From Deltaproteobacteria bacterium (lineage in GTDB: Bacteria; Desulfobacterota_D; UBA1144; Nemesobacterales; Nemesobacteraceae), in assembly GCA_029262295.1 (NCBI GenBank), contig JAJCZR010000061.1, forward strand, positions 1 through 37,032: a stretch of 37,032 nt of DNA, read 5' to 3'. Shown here piece after piece: positions 1 to 11,706 of this stretch. The notes under the pieces are model-generated. The model did no database searches and had not been told where the DNA came from. It was given only the letters and a program-made list of their open reading frames with translations. A program made the translations under genes and the position numbers. Numbering within the stretch: the stretch's first letter is position 1; each line of letters begins with the position of its first letter.

Positions 1-167
1 TTGCAGATAAATTTGATATATCAAAACCAGCTATTTCTAATCATCTTAAAATACTTCAAGAAGCCGATTTGGTGAGTAATAAAAAAGTGAGACAGCAAAG
101 AATTTATTCAATTAATAAAAATAAGATTAGAGAGCTGAAAAAGTTTTTAGATGACATAACTGGTTAA
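1..167 (+). CDS. ArsR-type HTH regulator, C-terminal part (5' end outside window)
   Basis: The open frame enters from the left edge (first whole codon at 3) and stops with TAA at 165-167. The 54 visible residues contain the recognition-helix pattern SKPAISNHLKILQEADLV followed by a short beta-wing (QQRIYSI), which is the winged-helix signature of the ArsR/SmtB family. These are small dimeric repressors that leave DNA when they bind a metal or another signal. The inducer-binding residues cannot be judged because the N-terminal half is missing. It lies inside the mobile element whose right end is near 4695, so it is probably cargo or a regulator of the element. Confidence 0.8.
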   Translation, partial: ADKFDISKPAISNHLKILQEADLVSNKKVRQQRIYSINKNKIRELKKFLDDITG

Positions 168-240
168 TTGAATTCAATGCTAATAACAGCATTACAATTT
201 ATATAAATAAAATATAAACTTTAATAATAGGGGATGTATT

Positions 241-459
241 ATGAATAAAACAATTCTTATTTCTGTGATTTTAATACTGGCCGTCTACATTTTTATGAAC
301 AGGCAAATTATCACTGTAACCACTGATATAAAACAAGGCGTATCCTACAATCGAGTTGAAGTTATTAATAAAATTACTGGAAATGTTAAGATAATTTATT
401 GCAACCAAGAAAGTATCACCTGCGTAATGCAAAATGAAATTAATGTTAGTTCTAAATAA
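241..459 (+). CDS. Small single-pass membrane-anchored protein, unknown function
   Basis: A 72-residue protein with one hydrophobic N-terminal segment (about residues 4-18, ILISVILILAVYIF) followed by a polar 50-residue tail carrying two cysteines (about 54 and 61). It could be an anchored periplasmic peptide or an uncleaved signal anchor. A GGGGA-like ribosome site at about 229-234 supports the ATG at 241. It follows the ArsR-type gene by about 70 bases on the same strand and may share its transcript. I do not recognise the family. The gene is within the mobile element. Confidence 0.55.
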   Translation: MNKTILISVILILAVYIFMNRQIITVTTDIKQGVSYNRVEVINKITGNVKIIYCNQESITCVMQNEINVSSK

Positions 460-482
460 TTTTTGCTAAAGGCTAAGAAATA

Positions 483-836
483 TTAATCTAACACAGTCCC
501 TTCAAAAACCTTTTTTGTTAGATGTAATTTCATTAAGTGTTCTTTATTTGGATTTGTTTTTAAAATTTTAAGTAGTTCGCTTGCCAAGTAACAAGTAGAT
601 TTAGGATTATCTTTTTTTACCGTTTTTATCATATACTGATTTGAACAAAACCAGATTTCTTCATTTAATAATTTAGAATATATAGGTATTGCCATATCCC
701 TTTTAGATAATTCTTTCAAAGTAAGTTTTGAAATTCCTGTAATAGTATCTTGGGATGAATCATAAAATGAATCAACATAAATATCCTTTTCTGACTGATT
801 TATCTTATTTAAAATATTATCCCATATAGCACTCAT
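483..836 (-). CDS. Hypothetical protein of mobile element, 117 aa
   Basis: Unrecognised soluble protein of 117 residues with no signal peptide or membrane segment. It is rich in Lys, Ser and Leu and ends in a basic stretch (HLMKLHLTKKVF). A GAGGG ribosome site lies about 8 bases before the ATG at 836 on the minus strand, so the gene looks real. It is downstream of the primase-helicase on the same strand but separated from it by a strong hairpin terminator (935-973) and by iteron-like repeats, so it probably has its own promoter. Context suggests an accessory gene of the integrated element; no function can be assigned. Confidence 0.6.
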   Translation of the reverse strand: MSAIWDNILNKINQSEKDIYVDSFYDSSQDTITGISKLTLKELSKRDMAIPIYSKLLNEEIWFCSNQYMIKTVKKDNPKSTCYLASELLKILKTNPNKEHLMKLHLTKKVFEGTVLD

Positions 837-865
837 AGTTGGTTACCCTCTATATAGCTCAAAAA

Positions 866-1043
866 CCGTTACAACCGTTACAATTCGCAAAATATATAAT
901 AATACCCGTAGTTTATGGCATTATATGTGCTTTTAAAAAACCCCTTACACTATGTAACTTGTAAGGGTTTTTTAGATTGCTAGAAATTAACATAAACGCT
1001 TATAATCATTTAATAATATTATTTTTGTAACGCATGTAACGCA
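866..1043. repeat. Iteron-like TGTAACG repeats, possible element origin
   Basis: Two exact tandem 9-mers CCGTTACAA occur at 866-874 and 875-883. Two exact tandem 9-mers TGTAACGCA occur at 1026-1034 and 1035-1043, inside the last codons of the primase gene. On one strand all four share the core TGTAACG (inverted in the first pair). Short directly repeated boxes beside a primase-helicase gene are what iteron origins of plasmids and integrative elements look like. Function as an origin is inference; the repeats themselves are directly visible. Confidence 0.45.
935..973. terminator. Intrinsic terminator after primase gene
   Basis: A hairpin with arms 935-949 and 960-973 (AAAAAACCC(C)TTACA against TGTAAGGGTTTTTT, one bulged C) and a 10-base loop. 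A-rich on one side and T-rich on the other, it can terminate in both directions. It most likely ends the leftward primase transcript, whose stop codon is at 1019. Confidence 0.8.
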
Positions 1044-3472
1044 TTTTGAGGCTCTATAGAAGAACCCCAGCGTTGAGATAGGTCTTCAATTTGCTTTTTT
1101 GTTAATTTATAGCCCCTAATTGGCTCATGTCCTTTTCTGTGTGTTTGTGATCTTGAACCCATTTTTCTAAGTAAGGATTGAGCATCTTTGTTCTTTTCCA
1201 CCCAATCTATGCCACCATTATTGAAAATTTGGACAGCTTCTTCAGATGTAATAATAATTTCATCTAAACCTTCTGAATTGATATGTTCTCTCATTATGTC
1301 GATTGCTTTAACAAAATAGGCACTATCTTCGCTTTCTTCTTTTGTATAACTCAATCCAATTGAGGCTAGTTTTAGTTGTTCAAAAAGCTTTATTGTATCT
1401 TTATCTTCAACATTATTAAGTACAACTGCAGCAATTGAGTACAAAATCTCAAGTCCATCCTTTAATCTATCATCAACATTTTCTGAAATAATTTCATCTT
1501 TGAAATTTGAATATGCTTCATATATCTTATTGGCATTATTAAGTGCAAAAATATGTAGATTATCTCTTAAACCATGAAAAATCCCCTGCATCCTATCAAT
1601 CTGTAGTCTTTCAACTTTCTCATTTCTTTTTTTTCTAATAAGTTCAATTTTTATAGCTCTGTCGGCTGTTGCATCTTCAAGATAGTTGATCCCAGCTAGT
1701 ACAATAGGTCTGAATACAGAAAATTGCTTGACCTTGTTTTCCTTTCCATCACATCTTGATATATAACCTTGTCTTCTATATGCTGAGTTCAATATTGAAA
1801 GTCTTTCGCCTGTTTCTTTCTTTTTTATCAGGTTCTCGGCTTCATCCCATAGCAAGGTTCCTGCTGTAATAGATGGCACTCTATAAAGAACAGCATCACT
1901 CGGAGCTGTTTCGATTCCGTTTGCGTTATAACAAAGTTCAGACAATAGCTCCAATAATCTTGTTTTTCCACATCTTTTAGTTGGAGAATTAATCCAAAGA
2001 AAAGGGTAGAGGGGAAAAATTCTATGTAAATAAGTTCCCATTACCCATAATGAGGTTAAATCTGATTGCCAGTCATCCTTGAATATGACAAATTTATTTA
2101 GCATGTCTTTTATTTCCGAAAAAATAAAAAATGAAGACACTGGATTACTATTGCTTTGAAGGTATTTTTGTATTCCTTTAGCTGAAAATTTTGAAAATAT
2201 TGGTTTGTCTTCTAAATAGTATTCATTTTTAACTTGTTCTAAGTTTCTTACTTTGTTGTCAGATATAAATAAGCATTCACCGTTAAGTTTAAGACCGTAC
2301 ATCAATTCACCATCAATAAAGTTCATTGAAGAATGTATGTATTTTTTGTTATCTGAGGAAGAAAAAATTTTTTCTTCCTCTACAATGCTTTCATGTGTTT
2401 TAGCCTTTTTTAATGATTCATCGACTATCTCTTTGAATTTTTCTACTCCAACATCCACTAATATTTCATCAGCATCTTTTTCTTTATTTCCTAATTGAAT
2501 AACACTACATTTGAATTCTTTTGATAATTTGTATGATGCTTCTTTTCCAGCTTTATCAGGATCAAATGATATATATAAATGGCTTGTGGCATTATCTATC
2601 AAACTTTTATTAGCTTCTGAAACTTCTTTTCCTAATAATGAACAGCTTGGAAATCCTGCTTTAATAAATGCTAGAGAATCGGGAATAGATTCTGTAATTA
2701 TGCAAAGGTTTTTATTTAGATTTTCTGAAAATGTTATGGGTTTATTTGGACATAGTTCATTGTTTGGAAGTCCTAACCATTTGGGGTATCTGTCGTTTAC
2801 AATAGGAAATTGTCTTGACCAAATTGATATTGGAGTACCTTTATCGTAAATTGGAAAAATTAATCGATTTTGAAAACTTTCATACGAATTACGATTGCCT
2901 TTTTCTTTAATAATTCCAAGTTCTAATGAATTGGCTTTATGTTCTTCTGATAAAAAATTAGAAAAAATATTCTTTCCAACATAGCCAATTTTATAGTCTT
3001 CTATTTGCTCAATTGTAATCCCTTTCTCAAGTTTTAAAGATTCTTGAATATTTGTGTTAGTTAACAAATTTTCATGAGCTTTATTTACGTATAATTCGAG
3101 AGTATAAATTAAACCCAAAGGGATTTGTTTTATTTGTGTTGCTTCACAATCAATTGGAAGGTGGTATTTTTCGATTAATGATTTAGCTGCATCAAATTGA
3201 GAGTTATGACTGTGTAGTTCTTTTACTAGGCTTATTACATCTACAATTTTTTCACAACCGAAACATTTTGCACCTAGATTATCTGGTAAAAGAGTAAATG
3301 AAGGTTCTTTTTCATCATGAAATGGACATAAAGATTTTCTATTATTAAAATCGATGCCGTAGTCTTTGGCAACATTTACAAAATTGAGATTTTTTTTAAC
3401 TTCTGAGAAAATATCCACTTCGTAAGTTTCAGAATTATTCCTCAAAGGTGTATTTTTTTTATTCTTCATCAA
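1019..3472 (-). CDS. Primase-helicase: CHC2 zinc finger, Toprim, DUF3631-like ATPase
   Basis: Three recognisable parts lie in 817 residues. A DnaG-type zinc finger has C49, H52, C70 and C73. A Toprim primase core has E261 (TESIPDSL) and the DPD pair at 304-306. A P-loop ATPase region has Walker A SPTKRCGKT (496-504), Walker B LLWDEAE (540-546) and an Arg-rich segment after GINYLEDATADRAIKI resembling DUF3631 proteins of phages and integrative elements. Such fusions make primers and unwind DNA to start replication of the element. The gene overlaps the AlpA-like gene upstream by 14 bases, so they are co-transcribed. It is followed by iteron-like repeats and a terminator. No linked helicase loader is seen, consistent with a self-contained replication protein. 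The first in-frame ATG pair at 3472 is used. Confidence 0.88.
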   Translation of the reverse strand: MMKNKKNTPLRNNSETYEVDIFSEVKKNLNFVNVAKDYGIDFNNRKSLCPFHDEKEPSFTLLPDNLGAKCFGCEKIVDVISLVKELHSHNSQFDAAKSLIEKYHLPIDCEATQIKQIPLGLIYTLELYVNKAHENLLTNTNIQESLKLEKGITIEQIEDYKIGYVGKNIFSNFLSEEHKANSLELGIIKEKGNRNSYESFQNRLIFPIYDKGTPISIWSRQFPIVNDRYPKWLGLPNNELCPNKPITFSENLNKNLCIITESIPDSLAFIKAGFPSCSLLGKEVSEANKSLIDNATSHLYISFDPDKAGKEASYKLSKEFKCSVIQLGNKEKDADEILVDVGVEKFKEIVDESLKKAKTHESIVEEEKIFSSSDNKKYIHSSMNFIDGELMYGLKLNGECLFISDNKVRNLEQVKNEYYLEDKPIFSKFSAKGIQKYLQSNSNPVSSFFIFSEIKDMLNKFVIFKDDWQSDLTSLWVMGTYLHRIFPLYPFLWINSPTKRCGKTRLLELLSELCYNANGIETAPSDAVLYRVPSITAGTLLWDEAENLIKKKETGERLSILNSAYRRQGYISRCDGKENKVKQFSVFRPIVLAGINYLEDATADRAIKIELIRKKRNEKVERLQIDRMQGIFHGLRDNLHIFALNNANKIYEAYSNFKDEIISENVDDRLKDGLEILYSIAAVVLNNVEDKDTIKLFEQLKLASIGLSYTKEESEDSAYFVKAIDIMREHINSEGLDEIIITSEEAVQIFNNGGIDWVEKNKDAQSLLRKMGSRSQTHRKGHEPIRGYKLTKKQIEDLSQRWGSSIEPQNALHALQK

Positions 3473-3677
3473 TTTGATTCTCCAAATCTAACCATTTCAA
3501 GAATTTTTTAGTATTTAGATATACTCTCGATCCTATCCTTCTTCCCCTGGGCATTTTCCCTGTTCTTTCATATTTCCTTAAAGTCCACATAGGAATTGAA
3601 GATATTTGAGATGCCTTTTTAAATGTTATTTGTAAGGGTAATTCGGATTCTTTTATAATATGAATTTTTGAAGCCAT
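3459..3677 (-). CDS. AlpA/excisionase-like HTH DNA-binding protein
   Basis: A 72-residue protein with a MerR-like winged helix: TFKKASQISSIPMWTLRKYERTGKMPRGRRIGSRV followed by YLNTKKFLKWL. This layout is typical of AlpA/Xis-type proteins that bind att sites or promoters of integrated elements and steer excision. A perfect AGGAGG ribosome site precedes the ATG at 3677. The 3' end overlaps the primase start, placing both in one operon. I infer that it regulates excision or replication of the element; a plain transcriptional regulator is equally possible. Confidence 0.75.
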   Translation of the reverse strand: MASKIHIIKESELPLQITFKKASQISSIPMWTLRKYERTGKMPRGRRIGSRVYLNTKKFLKWLDLENQIDEE

Positions 3678-3759
3678 TTTTTAGTTCCTCCTAAAATATT
3701 TTTGTATTATTTAGGATAGAATAAAATGACTTAGAAAGATGGTGGCTAATTAAAAATTA

Positions 3760-4560
3760 TTAACCACTACTTTCGTAGTAGAAATCACGCAAGCTATGAT
3801 AAGGAACATTTAACTTTATTGAGAAAAAATATATTGCAACTTCTTTAACCTTACTTATCTCAAATTTTGGATCTGGTTCTTGATTTAATTCGGAATTAAA
3901 AATTGATAAATGAGCATAATTAATAGAATCTTCAGTAATTATTTTTCTCCCTTTTTTTACTTCCATCATAGATTCTTTGATCTTAGTTGCTAATAAATTC
4001 ACATGTATTTGAAAATAATCTTGATTATTTTCAAATAACAACTCAAATAGTGGACTGTCAAATGAATATGCTTTACCTTTTTTAGTTGTTTTTAATAATG
4101 GCAATTTACATTGATCTAAAATATCGTCTACTCTTTTTTTTACTTTAGTCTTCATTATTTTTGAAGCAAGCATATAAAATTTCAATATATTTGAATACTT
4201 ATTAGTAAAAACTAATTTATTATTTCTCAAGAGCTCTTTTTTAATTAACCGTGGTTTCAAAAAATACTCTATTTCTTCTTTTTTTTCATTAGTGAACACA
4301 AACAATTCTTGAACTACTCTAATTTTTTCAAAATCTGTTCTAGATTTCTCTCTAACAAACTCATATATGAGATAATCAACACATAAGTCAACATCTTCTT
4401 TTTCATGTAATTTAGGTATAAAAGGTTTGATTAATTGATATAAAATACCTTTTATTAAATTGTAATTCTCATAACCGCAAAATATAAGATTAATGTAATG
4501 GGTGTCTGGATAGGTGTCTATTTTGTCTGATAATAGATTTTTTAGTATGCCTTTAGCCAC
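3760..4560 (-). CDS. Unknown 266-aa protein at the element's right end
   Basis: A soluble, Lys-rich protein with no signal peptide or membrane helix; no family recognised. The first half is helix-rich with FVREKSRTDFEKIRVVQELFVF. The second half contains a basic patch (MKTKVKKRVDDIL) and TTKKGKAYSFDSPLFELLF. The start is GTG at 4558-4560 (GTG GCT AAA GGC) with a TATAAT box about 18 bases before it at 4578-4583. It is the last gene before the attachment-site scar at 4651 and is read toward the AlpA-like and primase genes, as a replication initiator or early regulator would be. That role is a guess from position only. Confidence 0.6.
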   Translation of the reverse strand: MAKGILKNLLSDKIDTYPDTHYINLIFCGYENYNLIKGILYQLIKPFIPKLHEKEDVDLCVDYLIYEFVREKSRTDFEKIRVVQELFVFTNEKKEEIEYFLKPRLIKKELLRNNKLVFTNKYSNILKFYMLASKIMKTKVKKRVDDILDQCKLPLLKTTKKGKAYSFDSPLFELLFENNQDYFQIHVNLLATKIKESMMEVKKGRKIITEDSINYAHLSIFNSELNQEPDPKFEISKVKEVAIYFFSIKLNVPYHSLRDFYYESSG

Positions 4561-4650
4561 AATGCTAAAATAACAATATTATAAGTATTTTCAAGGGAAT
4601 TAATCTTTGTACACCATTAGCTATATTAGTATCAAAAAACTATATCAATT

Positions 4651-4695
4651 CCTTGCCAAGGAGAAGGTCGCGGGTTCGAATCCCGTTTCCCGCTC
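4651..4695 (+). repeat. tRNA-Gly(GCC) 3' fragment, attachment-site scar of integrated element
   Basis: The segment starts with the anticodon loop TTGCCAA in CCTTGCCAAGG, continues with the T arm (GCGGGTTCGAATCCCGT) and ends with the 3' acceptor strand TTCCCGCTC. It matches the 3' half of bacterial tRNA-Gly(GCC). The 5' acceptor and D arm are absent; the bases upstream are AT-rich and unrelated. Tyrosine-recombinase elements integrate in tRNA 3' ends and leave exactly such a copy at the distal end. Because the copy reads rightward, the element extends leftward from here, and the intact tRNA-Gly should lie left of the window. Confidence 0.8.
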
Positions 4696-4744
4696 AATTT
4701 TTAATTTTCTTAAACTTATTCAACATTCTGTTTAAAATAGCACA

Positions 4745-4773
4745 TTGATACATATAGCCCATTGGGTTACTCT
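4745..4773 (+). promoter_or_regulatory. Possible promoter of the toxin-antitoxin operon
   Basis: TTGATA at 4745-4750 and TACTCT at 4768-4773 are 17 bases apart, a fair -35/-10 pair. The predicted transcription start would fall near the GTG codon at 4780, which could make the toxin message leaderless. Confidence 0.35.
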
Positions 4774-5121
4774 ATACTTGTGAATAAAAAACTTGTCACT
4801 GTTGTAGAACATTCTTATTACATAAAACGTGCAGAAAGAGTTATAACAACAGACCAGATGCAAGATATAACAGACATTCTGGCTATTAATCCTAAAGCTG
4901 GTGATGTAATGGGGGGAACAGGAGGTTTCAGAAAACTCCGTTATGCAGGAATTCAAGGTAAAGGGAAAAGTGGTGGATTTAGGATAATACAAATTTATAT
5001 AAAAATAGATGAAAAAGTTCATCTTGTTGATATATTCGGAAAAAACGAAAAGGACAATTTAAGTAAAGAAGAAAGAAATGAACTTACAAAATTAGCAGAA
5101 ATTTTAAAAGGGAAGAATTAG
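4762..5121 (+). CDS. RelE/HigB-like toxin of a type II toxin-antitoxin pair
   Basis: 119 residues with the pattern of RelE/ParE-superfamily (HigB2-type) toxins: VVEHSYYIKRAERV, then DITDILAINPKAGDVMGGTGGFRKLRYAG, GKGKSGGFRIIQIYI and a C-terminal LVDIFGKNEKDNLSKEERNELTKL. Family members cleave mRNA on the ribosome; catalytic residues are scattered basic side chains and cannot be pinned down here. The start is uncertain: TTG at 4762, or GTG at 4780, which sits just after a promoter-like sequence; no clear ribosome site is seen. The antitoxin follows 9 bases downstream, the toxin-first order usual for HigBA and RelE-NadS pairs. The pair lies 70 bases outside the attachment scar. Confidence 0.85.
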   Translation: MGYSILVNKKLVTVVEHSYYIKRAERVITTDQMQDITDILAINPKAGDVMGGTGGFRKLRYAGIQGKGKSGGFRIIQIYIKIDEKVHLVDIFGKNEKDNLSKEERNELTKLAEILKGKN

Positions 5122-5130
5122 GAGAATAAA

Positions 5131-5418
5131 ATGAGTGAAATATTTGAATCAATCAAAAAAGGTGTTGAAGAAGCAATTGAATGGAAGAAGGGCAAAAAAA
5201 CTGGTGCCCGAGTTCATATTTACACTGCAATGGATGTTGCAAAAATTCGCAAGAAAACTAAAATGAGTCAGAAGAAATTCTCAGAGGCTTTTTCCATTCC
5301 TTTATCTACTTTAAGAAAATGGGAACAAGGACAACGCGTGCCTCAAGGCCCGGCTCAGGCTTTGTTAAAAATTATAGATAAAGATGCAAAGGCCGCCCTG
5401 GAGGCCATCCACAGATAA
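5131..5418 (+). CDS. Xre-family antitoxin (HigA/NadS-like)
   Basis: 95 residues with a Xre/Cro helix-turn-helix: VAKIRKKTKMSQKKFSEAFSIPLSTLRKWEQGQRVP, followed by GPAQALLKIIDKDAKAALEAI. The SxxTLRKWEQGxRxPxGPA motif is typical of NadS/HigA antitoxins, which neutralise the RelE-like partner and repress the operon. An AGGAG ribosome site precedes the ATG at 5131. Its toxin is encoded just upstream on the same strand. Confidence 0.88.
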   Translation: MSEIFESIKKGVEEAIEWKKGKKTGARVHIYTAMDVAKIRKKTKMSQKKFSEAFSIPLSTLRKWEQGQRVPQGPAQALLKIIDKDAKAALEAIHR

Positions 5419-5445
5419 CTAATCCGAACAGTTTAAATTAATGAC

Positions 5446-6123
5446 TCATTTTTCTTCAGAAGTATCTGTTGAGTTTTTATCAGATTTATTAAAAATTTGA
5501 TCTGAAGAAAGCACATTTATAAAAACATCTTTTGGAATTAAACATCTATCTACATCTAGTCCGCAAAAATCTCCGAATTCTTCAATCTCAATTGTGTCAT
5601 CACCGTAATAAACACCAATGCTTTCATCTACGAGACATACTCCATTAAAAAAATCAAAATCAATTACTTCATAACCGCTACATGGATTGTAAACATAACT
5701 CCCATTATAAAACTCACTTTCATTATTTGCTTCACATTCATTAAGCTTAATTGTTGTAATATAATTTCCGGGAGTTAAATTCACTGTCATTTCAGAAAAT
5801 CTTGGTGTGCAAACAAAGTCGTAAAACAAACTGTTTTCTACCTCTGGAATTGATTCTTCATAGTAACCATCGGTTGCCAGATAAGTATCAAGAACCTCAA
5901 TATCAAATCTGAAATCATCAATTAGAAGTTCGCCACTACCAGCCACATATTCATGATCTCTGTAAGCATCTAGCTCTATAGACAGACCTGTTTCAAAATT
6001 GGTTGCTGAGACCTGAGTTTCAAAATCTGGCATATCATCATTAAAGCTGCTTTCTTCGAGTGAACATCCACCAATAATTAAGAGAGGTAAAAAGAGTATT
6101 GTTAACAACAGTTGAATTTTCAT
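5446..6123 (-). CDS. Predicted lipoprotein, unknown function
   Basis: 225 residues beginning with a lipoprotein signal (MKIQLLLTILFLPLLIIGGC; C20 is the likely lipidated residue). The mature part is strongly acidic, rich in Asp, Glu and Tyr, and has seven or so further cysteines (for example in FVCTPRF, LNECEAN, NPCSGYE and the CGLDVDRC stretch), suggesting disulfides outside the cytoplasm. The segment TVNLTPGNYITTIKL resembles a beta-sandwich strand pair, but I recognise no family. An AGGAGA ribosome site lies before the ATG. It is monocistronic and convergent with the antitoxin gene. Confidence 0.7.
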   Translation of the reverse strand: MKIQLLLTILFLPLLIIGGCSLEESSFNDDMPDFETQVSATNFETGLSIELDAYRDHEYVAGSGELLIDDFRFDIEVLDTYLATDGYYEESIPEVENSLFYDFVCTPRFSEMTVNLTPGNYITTIKLNECEANNESEFYNGSYVYNPCSGYEVIDFDFFNGVCLVDESIGVYYGDDTIEIEEFGDFCGLDVDRCLIPKDVFINVLSSDQIFNKSDKNSTDTSEEK

Positions 6124-6260
6124 CGCTTTCTCCTATCCTGAATTTCAATAATACAAACCAGAATAGAAGAAAAGTGTTTCAGGAAAGTTTATTTGATTTG
6201 TTTTTGGGTATAGAACTATTTCATTTAAAATTAACAAACGAAAAAAATATTTTGCTAATT

Positions 6261-7361
6261 CTACGTATCAAATGCTTTCATTTTCTTTAAAATATCATCC
6301 ATAGTCCTATCTTTCTCTTCTTTTGACATTTTAGATACTCGATTTCCTAATCCTTTTTGTCTAGGAATTAAAAATCTTTTCCAAGCTTTTAGTGTAAAAG
6401 AATTATCAAGCTCTGGCGGATAATTTCCATAATCAGACGAATATTTTTCTTTCTCTAATTCAGACAAATTTTTCCACCATTGCGAAATTCTATTAATATC
6501 ACTTCTCAATTCGTTAGTATCAACAAATATTTGATAGTCTGATACTAAACATTTGCACAATTTAATTTGATCTTTGTCGCAACTAGAGAATACGTAACAA
6601 AATGGTAGATAAAATAAATATTGCAAATCTATAATATTGGTAGTCTTAGTCCCAATAACCCTAAAAAGAAGAGAATAAAAAAATAGAAGTAACGCTTTTA
6701 AAATAAAGAACCCATATTCTGAAAACACTTTAATACTTTTATGATTTCCATCAATCCATCTATTAATTATTTTAGTTTTATCATCATCATTAAAAATGAA
6801 AGAATTAACTAGCCACATAAGCATCTCTAACTGATCTGCTTGATTCTCACTTGATAATTTTATTTCTGTAACTTTAACTACATCATCTAAATTTTTGATT
6901 TTTTCATTTTTTTTTATTAATTTTTCAAAGCTACTTACTAAATCTTCAAAATTAATTTTAGATAAATATGTTTCATATGATTTAGCATATTCTAGTTCTA
7001 AATCATTAAACTCTCCCCTTTGCCATCTAATAAACATTGAAGATTCTTCTGTTCTATCTATAAGTACCCCATTATTCGTTATTTTAGTTGGAGTAACTAC
7101 TGGCCTGCCATCAATAACAAAGTCAAAACCCAATAATGATTGTAATAACAATATGTCAAACATCTCATTTGTAGCAGAAAAAACTGAAAGTCTTTTTGAT
7201 AAGCTAGAAACTTTTTCTCTTGGATATTTTCTCAAATCTGCAATAATTTCACCTATGAGTATAGGTGTATTATTAATGTGATAATATTTACTAATTGTAT
7301 AGTATTCAGATGTGGAAAAAGTCTGAAAAGCGGATTTATCTAATGTTAAAAATGGTCCCAT
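6261..7361 (-). CDS. Hypothetical protein, possibly PIN-like nuclease family
   Basis: 366 residues. The N-terminus (LTLDKSAFQ, D8) and PILIGEIIADL (E about 38), with a later YLFYLPFCYVFSSCDKDQ segment followed by DYQIFVDTNELRSDI, resemble a group of large uncharacterised bacterial proteins that carry PIN-like acidic clusters. That link is from pattern memory, not an alignment. The segment FFILKALLLFFYSLLF (about residues 216-232) is hydrophobic but may be a buried helix rather than a membrane segment. No clear ribosome site is visible at the ATG. It lies in an accessory stretch beside toxin-antitoxin and nucleotidyltransferase genes, so a defence or toxin role is possible but unproven. Confidence 0.6.
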   Translation of the reverse strand: MGPFLTLDKSAFQTFSTSEYYTISKYYHINNTPILIGEIIADLRKYPREKVSSLSKRLSVFSATNEMFDILLLQSLLGFDFVIDGRPVVTPTKITNNGVLIDRTEESSMFIRWQRGEFNDLELEYAKSYETYLSKINFEDLVSSFEKLIKKNEKIKNLDDVVKVTEIKLSSENQADQLEMLMWLVNSFIFNDDDKTKIINRWIDGNHKSIKVFSEYGFFILKALLLFFYSLLFRVIGTKTTNIIDLQYLFYLPFCYVFSSCDKDQIKLCKCLVSDYQIFVDTNELRSDINRISQWWKNLSELEKEKYSSDYGNYPPELDNSFTLKAWKRFLIPRQKGLGNRVSKMSKEEKDRTMDDILKKMKAFDT

Positions 7362-7417
7362 TATTAATAAGTAATCATTCTTATATAATATTCAATATTA
7401 AAGCTGGTGAGTTTATA

Positions 7418-7477
7418 CTAATCCCCAAAAGGAAGAAAGTTTTCGGTTGATTCTATATTGTAAATTAGTTTTTGAAG
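7418..7477 (-). pseudogene. Duplicated C-terminal scrap of the glutathione S-transferase gene
   Basis: Read on the minus strand, 7477 to 7418 encodes LQKLIYNIESTENFLPFGD and a stop. The intact gene at 7833-8432 ends IQKWIENIESTENFLPFGD and a stop. DNA identity is high for about 40 bases and fades upstream. No start codon or further transferase sequence is present, so this is a relic of a tandem duplication or recombination that now flanks the dodecin gene. Confidence 0.75.
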
Positions 7478-7525
7478 ACGGCGAGCTCTCAATTAAAAAC
7501 CCGCCGTAAATAAGTTTGTATTCTT

Positions 7526-7732
7526 TTATCCTTCGAGGACAAAAGTAATTCTTAGATGCGCTCTATATTCTTCAATATTACCTTTATCATCAATAGAAGC
7601 ATTCATCTTTGTTACTTCAATTCCTGTTAATCCTCTTAATGTCTTATTAGCTCTTTCCAAAGCATTATTAACTGCATCATCCCAGGATTTTGAAGAACCT
7701 CCAATAATTTCTGTAATTCTTGCAACTGCCAT
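7526..7732 (-). CDS. Dodecin, flavin-binding storage protein
   Basis: 68 residues matching dodecins along their full length: ARITEIIGGSSKSWDDAVNNALERANKTLRGLTGIEVTKM, then YRAHLRITFVLEG. Dodecins form hollow 12-mers that bind flavins (FMN, riboflavin) or CoA and buffer them in the cytoplasm. In many members a Trp in the middle of the chain stacks on the flavin; here the only Trp is at about residue 17 and the central position is Leu-Thr-Gly, so ligand preference may differ. A strong AGGAGG site precedes the ATG at 7732. It sits between an intact glutathione S-transferase and that gene's duplicated tail. Confidence 0.9.
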   Translation of the reverse strand: MAVARITEIIGGSSKSWDDAVNNALERANKTLRGLTGIEVTKMNASIDDKGNIEEYRAHLRITFVLEG

Positions 7733-7832
7733 AGTATTACCTCCTTAGTTTTATTTGAATCTTTGGTAACAGCATTATAGATAATTTTTGTTTGGATGTT
7801 AAGTAACTTGAGAGAATAAAAATAGAATTCTT

Positions 7833-8432
7833 CTAATCTCCAAAAGGAAGAAAGTTTTCTGTTGATTCTATATTCTCAATCCATTTTTGAATATTAAGAT
7901 AATTGGTAAGTTCAACTCCACCTTCGGGTGCGAGCATTATATAGGGATAACAGGCGATATCTGCTATTGAGTAACTATCCACAAGAAAATCTTTGCCTTT
8001 AAGATGCGCGTCAAGAGTTTTTAAAGCAGAGTTACCCTGCATTTGAAATTTTTTCATATCTTCAGGATCATGGTCGGGAACAAATTTGGTTAAATACCTG
8101 GCCATTGCAAGATTTGGATCAATTGAAGTTTTTCCAAATAAAACCCACTGGGCAATATGCCCATAAGTTTCAGGATTATCGGAAGTAAATGAATTTGGAG
8201 AATACTTTTTAGCAAGATAAAAAAGGATTGCATTTGACTCCCACATCACAAAATCACCATCCACAATCACAGGAATCTTTTGATTGGGATTTACTTTGGT
8301 GAACTCTTCACCTTTATGCTCACCTTCAAATAGTTCAACTATTATCCTTTCAAACTCCACACCAAGCTGATGTAAAAGTAGCCTCGGTTTGTAAGCATTT
8401 CCAGAAAGTTTGTGGTCGTATAGTTTTATCAT
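7833..8432 (-). CDS. Glutathione S-transferase family protein
   Basis: 199 residues with the thioredoxin-like N-terminal domain (MIKLYDHKLSGNAYKPRLLLHQLGVEFE, cis-Pro motif NPNQKIPVIVD, then WESNAILFYLAKKY, where E-S binds the gamma-glutamyl part of glutathione). The all-helical C-terminal domain follows with the conserved SIADIACYPYIM. The likely catalytic residue is Ser10 in LSGN. The family conjugates glutathione to electrophiles or acts in isomerisation; the substrate is unknown. Its start is 2 bases from the stop of the nucleotidyltransferase gene, so both are co-transcribed. Confidence 0.92.
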   Translation of the reverse strand: MIKLYDHKLSGNAYKPRLLLHQLGVEFERIIVELFEGEHKGEEFTKVNPNQKIPVIVDGDFVMWESNAILFYLAKKYSPNSFTSDNPETYGHIAQWVLFGKTSIDPNLAMARYLTKFVPDHDPEDMKKFQMQGNSALKTLDAHLKGKDFLVDSYSIADIACYPYIMLAPEGGVELTNYLNIQKWIENIESTENFLPFGD

Positions 8433-8433
8433 T

Positions 8434-8733
8434 TTAATTTGAGTAAACCAACTGCTTTGTTAAATCAATTTCCTTTTTAAAATAAGGGTTTCGTATTCTT
8501 TCTTTATTAACCAAGTAAACGTCTTTATCTAGTATAGCCTCAAGTTCTTCTTTGAGATCAAAATATCTATCAAAACTTCCTTTTATTTTTTTCTCCAGAA
8601 AAGCAACTAGAAAATGAACATCTATTTTATTAAAAGAATCATCATTTTCATATGACCCAAATACTGAGAGTCTTTTTACTCTGTATTTTTTACAGATTTG
8701 AGAGATTTTATCATTACTAAGGTCTAAATTCAT
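8434..8733 (-). CDS. Minimal nucleotidyltransferase (MNT-like), second catalytic Asp replaced
   Basis: 99 residues of the MNT fold: KRLSVFGSYENDD, then KIDVHFLVAFLEKK, and a C-terminal LDKDVYLVNKERI where the third carboxylate (DVYLV) is kept. Active members have GSxARG...SDxDFLVEF; here the second motif reads IDVHFLVAF, so Asp-x-Asp has become Asp-x-His. That should weaken or abolish nucleotide transfer. MNT proteins are often antitoxins paired with a HEPN toxin, but no HEPN gene is next to this one; the neighbours are a glutathione S-transferase and a thioesterase. It may be a degraded orphan. The spacer upstream consists of TTAGG-like repeats, which also supply its GGGG ribosome site. Confidence 0.75.
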   Translation of the reverse strand: MNLDLSNDKISQICKKYRVKRLSVFGSYENDDSFNKIDVHFLVAFLEKKIKGSFDRYFDLKEELEAILDKDVYLVNKERIRNPYFKKEIDLTKQLVYSN

Positions 8734-8776
8734 TTTACTAACCCCTAAAACCTAATCCCTAATACCTATCACCTAA
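8734..8776. repeat. Degenerate TTAGG/CCTAA-like short repeats
   Basis: The whole gap between the thioesterase and nucleotidyltransferase genes is made of variants of CCTAA: ACCCCTAAAACCTAATCCC followed by TAATACCTATCACCTAACTA. A shorter relative (GGTTAGATGTTAGGG) lies at about 29562-29576, before the endonuclease III gene. The origin may be replication slippage. Confidence 0.6.
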
Positions 8777-9271
8777 CTACTCATAAATATAATCTAAAAA
8801 TTTGCCGGTAAATCTTTCTTTTCCTAATACATCAAACACAACTTCTTTTTTAGGAAGGAAGTAAGCTACAGAACTCTTAGTACACTCAACACCATCTTCA
8901 TCATAAATAGTTGCATCAACAAAGACGTGCCTTCCTCTTACTTTCGTAACCTTACCCCTTACCTCAAGCTCAATATCACTATCTACTTTTTTGTTGTAGC
9001 TGATCTCCACTTTTGTTGTAAGCCCAATCTTTCCGACTTTATCAAACATAGTCCAGAAAGCCAGTTCATCTACAAGTGCACACTGAACTCCTCCATGAAG
9101 AATCCCCGGGAAACCCGCCATATATTCTTTCGGTTTGACTCTTGTGAAGACCTCTTCTTTTTCATCATCAGCATAAAACTTTAGCTGAAGTCCGTGCTTG
9201 TTATTCGGATGACAGGCAAAGCAGTTGTTATCAGGGAAATCAAGAAATACATTTTCTATTTCTCTTGGCAT
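8777..9271 (-). CDS. PaaI-like hotdog thioesterase
   Basis: 164 residues with a hotdog fold. The hallmark HGGVQCALVDELAFW (about residues 59-73) carries the catalytic-loop HGG and the helix acid, followed by TTKVEISYNKKVDSDIELEVRGKVTKVRGRHVFVDATIYDEDGVECTKSSVAYF. Such enzymes hydrolyse acyl-CoA thioesters. The N-terminal CFACHPNNKHGLQLKFY is typical of the PaaI/4HBT subgroup with a CxxC-x-N-x-GL lead-in. The natural acyl group cannot be read from sequence. The start is only 2 bases from the gyrA stop codon, so translation is probably coupled. Confidence 0.88.
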   Translation of the reverse strand: MPREIENVFLDFPDNNCFACHPNNKHGLQLKFYADDEKEEVFTRVKPKEYMAGFPGILHGGVQCALVDELAFWTMFDKVGKIGLTTKVEISYNKKVDSDIELEVRGKVTKVRGRHVFVDATIYDEDGVECTKSSVAYFLPKKEVVFDVLGKERFTGKFLDYIYE

Positions 9272-9273
9272 CG

Positions 9274-11706
9274 CTAATCACTTTCAACTACTTTTGTAAC
9301 AGCTGCCACAAACTCATCCTGCTTAAGATCAATTAACCTGAGACCTTGGGCACTTCTTCCATAGACACTTATTTCAGAAACTTTCATTCTTATTACCTTT
9401 CCACCATGAGTAGTAATAATCATTATTTCCATATCATTGGTAACCTGAAAGGCCCCTACAACTTTGCCATTTTTTCCGGTTGTTCTGATAGTCATTACGC
9501 CTTTACCACCCCTGCCGGTTAAACGGTATTCAGAAGCTTTTGTACGTTTACCATAACCCATATCAGTAACCGTTAGAATCTGTGCGTCAGGGTTTTTAAT
9601 TACCTCAAGGCTTACAACTTCATCACCTTTCCCAAGCCTTATACCCCTTACACCTGTTGCAGTCCTTCCCATGTCACGAACATCATCTTCATTAAACCTT
9701 ATTGCCTGGCCATTTCTTGAGGTAATAAGTATTTGATGCGCACCATTACTGATACTTGCCTCTACAAGCTCATCATCATCACGAATATTAAGGGCAATAA
9801 TCCCGCCAGCCCTTGGCCTTGAATAAGCCATAAGCTTGGTCTTTTTAATAACACCCTTTTTAGTTCCCATCACAATATATTCATCTTCTTTAAATTCTAT
9901 TACCGGAAGCACGGCTGCCACAGTTTCATTTTTATCAAGATCAAGAAGATTCACCATAGCCTTACCACGGGCAGTGGGACCAGCTTCAGGAAGTTCATGG
10001 ACTTTAAGCCAGTAACATTTTCCAAAGTTGGAAAAGAAAAGAACGTAGTTGTGCCGTGAAGCAATAAAAAGGGCATTAACAAAATCGGTATCCTTTGTGC
10101 TCATACCTGTTTTGCCTTTGCCGCCTCTTCTCTGGCTTCTATAAACACTGAGTGGAGTATTCTTTATATAACCATCATGAGTTGTTGTAACAACCATATC
10201 TTCATCAGCAATAAGATCTTCAATGGAAATCTCACCCGGGCTGTCGATTATCTCAGTTCTTCTTACATCGTTATACTGATCTTTAATTGCAGTGAGTTCT
10301 TCAACTGCTATATCGAGTATCAGTATTTCACTTCCAAGAATTTCTTTAAGCTTTTTAACAGTCTCAACAAGCTCAGCTCTTTCCTCAAGAATTTTACCTC
10401 TCTCAAGGGCAGTAAGCCTTTGAAGCCTCATATCCAGAATTGCCTGGGCCTGTTTTTCAGAAAGGCCAAGATTGCTCATAAGCCCTTGCCTTGCAATAGC
10501 AGGGCTTTCGGAACCTCTAATGAGCTTTATAACTTCATCAAGATTATCGAGCGCAATTTTTAACCCTTCTAATATGTGCAGGCGAGCTTCAGCTTTTGCA
10601 AGCTCATACTGAGTGCGCCGGGTTATTACCTCTTTTCTATGTTCAATAAACTGTGCTAATACTTCTTTTAGTGATAATACCTTTGGCTGATTTCTTACAA
10701 GGGCAAGCATTATTATTCCGAAAGATGTGTCCATCGGAGTGTGTTTGTAGAGCTGATTTAAAACAACCTGGGCGTTATCTCCCCTTTTCACATCTACTAC
10801 CAAGCGAATACCTTCCCTGTCAGATTCATCCCTTACATCGGAAATACCTTTAATCTTTTCATCTCTAACTAGCTCGCCGATACGGGCAGCAAGTTTTGCC
10901 TTATTCACCTGATAGGGAATTTCATTAATAATGATTATTTCCCTGTCGCCTTTTTTTTGTTTTTCAATATATGCTTTTGCCCTTACCCTTATTATTCCCC
11001 TGCCAGTTTCATAAGCTGAACGGATTTGATCTCTTCCGCTTATAAAAGCACCGGTTGGAAAATCAGGGCCGGGGATAAACCCCATTAATTCTTCAACAGT
11101 AATATCAGGATTTTGTATCTGGGCTATAACTCCATCTAGCAGTTCCCCAAGATTATGGGGCGGAATGTTTGTCGACATACCAACAGCAATTCCCGAAGAA
11201 CCATTTAAAAGAAGATTTGGAAGTTTTGTGGGAAGTACTGATGGCTCCATTTCACCGCCATCGTAGTTTGGAACAAAGTCGACTGTTTCTTTATCAAGAT
11301 CCTCGAGCATCTCACTTGAGATCCTCTCAAGCCTGACCTCCGTGTATCTCATTGCTGCAGGATTATCGCCATCAATAGAACCGAAGTTACCCTGCCCGTC
11401 TACTAGCATGTAGCGCATTGAAAAATCCTGCGCCATTCTTACAAGTGAATCATAGATAGCTGAATCACCATGAGGGTGATATTTACCCATTACATCACCG
11501 ACAATTCTTGCCGACTTTTTGTATGGCCTGTTCCAGATATTTCCGGTCTCACTCATGCCGTAAAGTATCCTTCTGTGTACTGGTTTTAAACCGTCTCTTA
11601 CATCGGGAAGTGCCCTGCCGACAATTACGCTCATCGAGTAACTGAGATAAGACTCCTTCATCTCATCTTCAATATTTACGGGCAAAATCTGTGGATCATT
11701 AGCCAT
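9274..11706 (-). CDS. gyrA: DNA gyrase subunit A
   Basis: 810 residues, the usual GyrA length. The winged-helix breakage-reunion domain contains the active-site Tyr121 (AAMRYTEVR). The quinolone-determining region [19 protein letters not shown] keeps Ser82 and Asp86, so no classical resistance change is seen. The C-terminal beta-pinwheel has the GyrA box QRRGGKG (about residue 530), which distinguishes it from ParC. With GyrB (not in the window) it introduces negative supercoils. An AGGAGG ribosome site precedes the ATG at 11706. It forms a transcript with the thioesterase gene downstream. Confidence 0.97.

Follow-up and report, generated by a model that had tools for sequence, protein, structure and literature searches.

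The window, that is, the whole 37,032-nucleotide contig C61 of a Deltaproteobacteria bacterium, contains near its left edge the 3' part of a tRNA-Gly(GCC) gene that lacks its beginning. The question raised by this locus is how such a fragment came to lie there, and to what the DNA that precedes it belongs. Our analysis indicates that positions 1-4649 very probably represent one end, the attR side, of an integrative mobile element, inserted in tRNA-Gly(GCC) between proB and the GST-gyrA gene block.

The comparison of the window with its own genome (G000) by BLAST revealed an exact match of 48 bases between window positions 4650-4697, on the forward strand, and the end of another contig, C15. 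There, ARAGORN identifies a complete tRNA-Gly(GCC) gene (gcgggaatagctcagttgg...ccttgccaagg...cccgctc; G000:C15:41757-41835) that stops two bases short of the contig end, adjoins proB, and is the sole intact copy in the genome. The match, with 100% identity, covers positions 30-77 of the tRNA gene plus its flank, from the anticodon arm through the 3' end to the second base beyond it. The 5' half is absent from the window, and neither ARAGORN nor Rfam calls a tRNA at this place. Since the longest tRNA match in 50 block-shuffled versions of the window was only 12 bp, the 48-bp match is not due to chance. The first-pass annotation, which had recognised a tRNA-Gly(GCC) part without its 5' half at 4651-4695, was therefore correct to within two bases, and the intact gene that it had predicted to the left is present on that side, next to proB. 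C15 ends precisely where the shared 48-mer ends, as expected if an assembler collapses the two copies of a repeat, and this end would fit two copies of an attachment site within one genome.

To see the site without the element, 40 relatives were searched for gyrA and for tRNA-Gly(GCC), and 34 of them carry both on a single contig. The distance between the two is 0.97-1.88 kb in 31 of these 34, and nearly all loci examined show the order proB, tRNA-Gly(GCC), a GST-like gene, a thioesterase-like gene, and gyrA, with the element absent; a Sir2 gene is additionally found in the g2 genomes examined by Pfam. As the genus holds no second genome, this empty site is seen at the distance of family and order. 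The comparison with element-free relatives, which had been proposed as a check, thus gave the anticipated result, with proB-tRNA-Gly(GCC)-GST-gyrA contiguous in most. In the genome at hand, the same order is divided, in unchanged relative orientation, over two contigs: proB and the intact tRNA gene lie on C15, and the 3' fragment, GST, thioesterase, and gyrA genes lie on the window contig. This division of a conserved gene order indicates that an element has its distal (attR) end in 1-4649. Observed directly are the 48-bp repeat without mismatch, the complete tRNA gene, and the uninterrupted ancestral site.

According to the mechanism that we propose, the element would have integrated into the single tRNA-Gly(GCC) gene, most likely by means of its own tyrosine integrase, and the crossover would fall within the stretch that encodes the anticodon arm. 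An identical 3' half brought in by the element would have taken the place of that of the host gene, leaving an intact tRNA gene on the proB side, and the original 3' half of the host would have been displaced to 4650-4697. C15 and C61, which are separate contigs in the assembly and both end before the left part of the element, would then be linked through it.

The boundary to the right of the scar is less simple than had been supposed. A change to a different set of genes at the scar had been claimed, and there is such a change; the conserved chromosome, however, resumes with the GST gene at 7833 and not at 4698. The 3.1 kb between them (4698-7832) contain a RelE/NadS-type toxin-antitoxin pair, a lipoprotein-like gene, a gene for a 366-aa protein, and dodecin, are lineage-specific in that they are missing from the same interval in relatives, and may belong either to the older host side or to an older insertion. 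From 7833 to 11706, on the reverse strand, the GST-like gene, the thioesterase-like gene, and gyrA follow in the order found beside tRNA-Gly(GCC) in relatives. A direct repeat lies at this second boundary: positions 7413-7476, which read NIESTENFLPFGD-stop, repeat with 86% identity the terminal 64 bases around the stop of the GST gene (7828-7891). The dodecin gene consequently has a GST 3' end on either side, one restored and one orphan, a layout like that of a second integration or duplication scar; the orphan end, beyond dodecin, resembles an older insertion scar at the 3' end of a protein gene. The RelE-like toxin and NadS-family antitoxin genes are located beside the tRNA scar, at 4762-5418, and a similar pair is found on contig C30 (L133:2176-2815), near an ArsR paralog with 80% DNA identity to the gene at the left edge of the window.

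The DNA to the left of the scar has a GC content of about 0.29 across 1-4650, whereas much of the conserved chromosome has 0.35-0.41, and contains six genes or open reading frames. Adjoining attR on the reverse strand (3760-4560) is the gene for a 266-aa protein without a Pfam match, for which neither 57 further genomes of the phylum nor viral contigs yielded a relative. It is followed, on the same strand, by a gene for a 72-aa MerR/HTH_17-like protein (3459-3677), AlpA- or excisionase-like, which overlaps the start of an intact reading frame of 817 codons (1019-3472, reverse strand). The latter encodes a DnaG-type primase (CHC2 zinc finger, DNAG_N, and Toprim domains in Pfam) joined in one protein with a helicase-like half, in which Walker A/B-like motifs are recognisable. 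A 117-aa protein is encoded at 483-836 on the reverse strand, a 72-aa open reading frame with a hydrophobic N-terminal stretch and no Pfam match lies at 241-459 on the forward strand, and the 3' part of an ArsR-family regulator gene (PF01022, E 4e-7), cut by the contig end, occupies 1-167 on the forward strand. These calls agree with the earlier ones for the ArsR tail and the DnaG domains; the AlpA-like call stands as a weak one (E 0.01-0.1), with scores of E 0.01 for PF00376, E 0.098 for HTH_17, and E 0.01 for the excisionase family PHROG 66. Confidence in the predicted structures is low, with a pLDDT of 58 for the HTH protein and 41 for the helicase half. The small HTH protein is probably an AlpA-type regulator or excisionase of the element, as far as these weak sequence matches indicate, and the element would replicate with its own predicted primase-helicase.

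The same DNA had been described as the right half of an element. Its right end is indeed what we see; as base 1 is the end of the contig, "half" is more than can be demonstrated, and the visible part is better called a right end. A search for DNA overlaps of window positions 1-150 with the other contigs retrieved only diverged paralogs of the ArsR gene, at 80% (C30) and 76% (C5) identity. Of tyrosine recombinases, the bin contains just two, named from their neighbours and length: XerC, adjacent to scpA-type genes, and XerD, adjacent to hslVU. Family searches of the 98.8%-complete bin, in which the interval between the tRNA gene and the fragment is only partly assembled, detected no non-Xer tyrosine integrase, no serine recombinase or resolvase, and no convincing terminase, with no Terminase_6N above the cut-off; positions 1-4649 contain neither terminase nor structural genes. 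With XerC and XerD as its only recombinases and no convincing terminase, the bin does not hold the left part of the element. All contigs of this genome among those listed are at least 11 kb long, and our guess is that filtering may have removed a short contig with the left part. The integrase of the present element is predicted to lie to the left of base 1, towards the tRNA gene, by analogy with the succession of HTH, primase, and integrase genes that recurs within the same taxonomic order. Thus, in G022:C333, a DnaG-type primase with 36% identity over the primase half has an HTH_17 protein gene upstream and a tyrosine integrase gene about 6 kb downstream, and in G036:C99 a DnaG-type primase gene adjoins that of an integrase; no sequence link is detectable between the HTH protein of the window and the HTH_17 protein of G022.

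The arrangement predicted for an intact tRNA gene with its integrase is found in another family of the same order. In G018:C4, a truncated and convergent tyrosine recombinase gene, of which the C-terminal part is left (L131:4844-5317, 158 aa, PF00589 E 5e-12), follows the intact tRNA-Gly(GCC) gene at a distance of about 10 bases or less. The distance from tRNA-Gly(GCC) to gyrA is 16.7 kb, and at about 10 kb there is a degraded tRNA-like 3' fragment with the same orientation (L124:9800-9822; a weak match, E 0.045). This independent recombinase remnant at the same tRNA gene indicates that the spot has been used at least twice. In a genome of a different family (G020:C26), about 8 kb (L118:6386-14706) with genes for a DUF4437 protein, a carboxylesterase, and glutamate dehydrogenase stand between tRNA-Gly(GCC) and GST; with its metabolic genes and no visible tRNA scar, this insert was not counted as an element.

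An element that has already decayed, having lost its integrase and most of its genes so that it is now immobile, with a left part that is short or gone, is the alternative that best survives these data, and we consider it rather unlikely. It agrees with the lack of an integrase in the bin and with decay of such kind at the same tRNA gene in G018, and the lengths of the listed contigs require only a short missing piece to be assumed. On the other hand, the identity of the two 48-bp copies and the intact frame of 817 codons suggest a fairly recent event, and the loss of short contigs accounts equally well for the missing part. Far less probable is a chromosomal rearrangement without any element, an inversion or translocation with its breakpoint in the tRNA gene. 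The chromosomal paralogs of the ArsR gene would allow some of the left DNA to be ordinary chromosome; however, the 3' duplication of 48 bp is clean, the intact gene is kept on its original proB side, and the primase-helicase and HTH genes are missing at the same site in relatives. An assembly chimera at the conserved tRNA repeat can be practically dismissed: the end of C15 exactly at the repeat does suggest that the assembler stumbled there, but no tRNA 5' half precedes position 4650, so that a join at the whole tRNA gene of another organism cannot yield this sequence and an attR-type junction is required in any case.

The type of integrative element is suggested by its relatives, the best of which is a fragment of a prophage or satellite in G037:C110, from the same order. 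Its helicase half is 50% identical to that of the window, its relative of the 117-aa protein is 49% identical and, as here, encoded directly downstream of the helicase gene, and the gene order is equal. An HTH gene and a gene for the terminase large subunit, split by a stop, come next. In contrast to the element in the window, this fragment is not at tRNA-Gly(GCC), and an unrelated N-terminal half replaces the DnaG primase: the products of L114:185-2650 and of window positions 1019-3472 have only the helicase half in common. The motifs of the G037 N-terminal half, which has no Pfam match, recall archaeo-eukaryotic-type primases. In the genome_contigs collection, the only match was to the DnaG half, in a TM6 genome; in the phage and plasmid collections, almost all matches were to the DnaG half, and no record covers 80% of the query; and viral contigs gave no relative when scanned with the primase or the 266-aa protein as query, or with an alignment of the helicase. 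Because the G037 fragment has the same helicase half and 117-aa reading frame together with a TerS-like gene and an interrupted gene for the large terminase subunit, a prophage or phage satellite is slightly favoured over a conjugative element.

The locus shares several features with the islands in tRNA genes of the Islander and TIGER class (PMC4383910). According to this principle, the island restores the tRNA gene, and the displaced 3' fragment, located downstream on the same strand, marks its far end. Here, too, we find an intact tRNA gene and a terminal fragment of the same gene, foreign genes beside the fragment, a crossover of the anticodon type, and a site uninterrupted in 31 of 34 relatives; the downstream position and same orientation of the fragment follow from synteny with relatives, as the contigs are not joined. 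Islander also looks for a non-Xer tyrosine integrase between the tRNA gene and the fragment; in the assembled part of this interval, neither an integrase nor attL is seen. The element, of at least 4.65 kb with its left end missing, compares with an Islander length range of 2-200 kb. Satellites with an AlpA regulator and a primase, P4-like (PMC8628076) or PICMI (PMC10803314), likewise carry a small HTH regulator gene directly before the primase gene near one att end. The PICMI model, however, has a DUF3987/DUF5906 primase, whereas that of the element has only the DnaG-type CHC2, DNAG_N, and Toprim domains and a separate helicase-like half; and the AlpA-family regulators of these satellites would correspond here to an HTH protein with weak scores (HTH_17 E 0.098, PHROG excisionase E 0.01) and a low-confidence model (pLDDT 58). 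The integrase that such satellites carry is not seen in the assembled right end.

A tentative idea, to which we give limited credence, is that these elements form an undescribed group of phage satellites or prophages that target tRNA-Gly(GCC), with interchangeable primase domains on one conserved helicase half and a recurrent site beside gyrA. In such a group, the primase half would be of the DnaG type here, and unrelated and possibly of the archaeo-eukaryotic type in G037. The mechanism itself is the textbook one; insertion in tRNA genes is common for such elements, and the finding is real but ordinary. What it contributes is one precise, synteny-checked attachment site, whose attR scar could be found from the sequence alone, in a lineage whose mobile elements seem to have received little attention, together with two useful by-products: the region between proB and gyrA as a place of repeated integration, and primase domains that seem to have been exchanged on a common helicase half.
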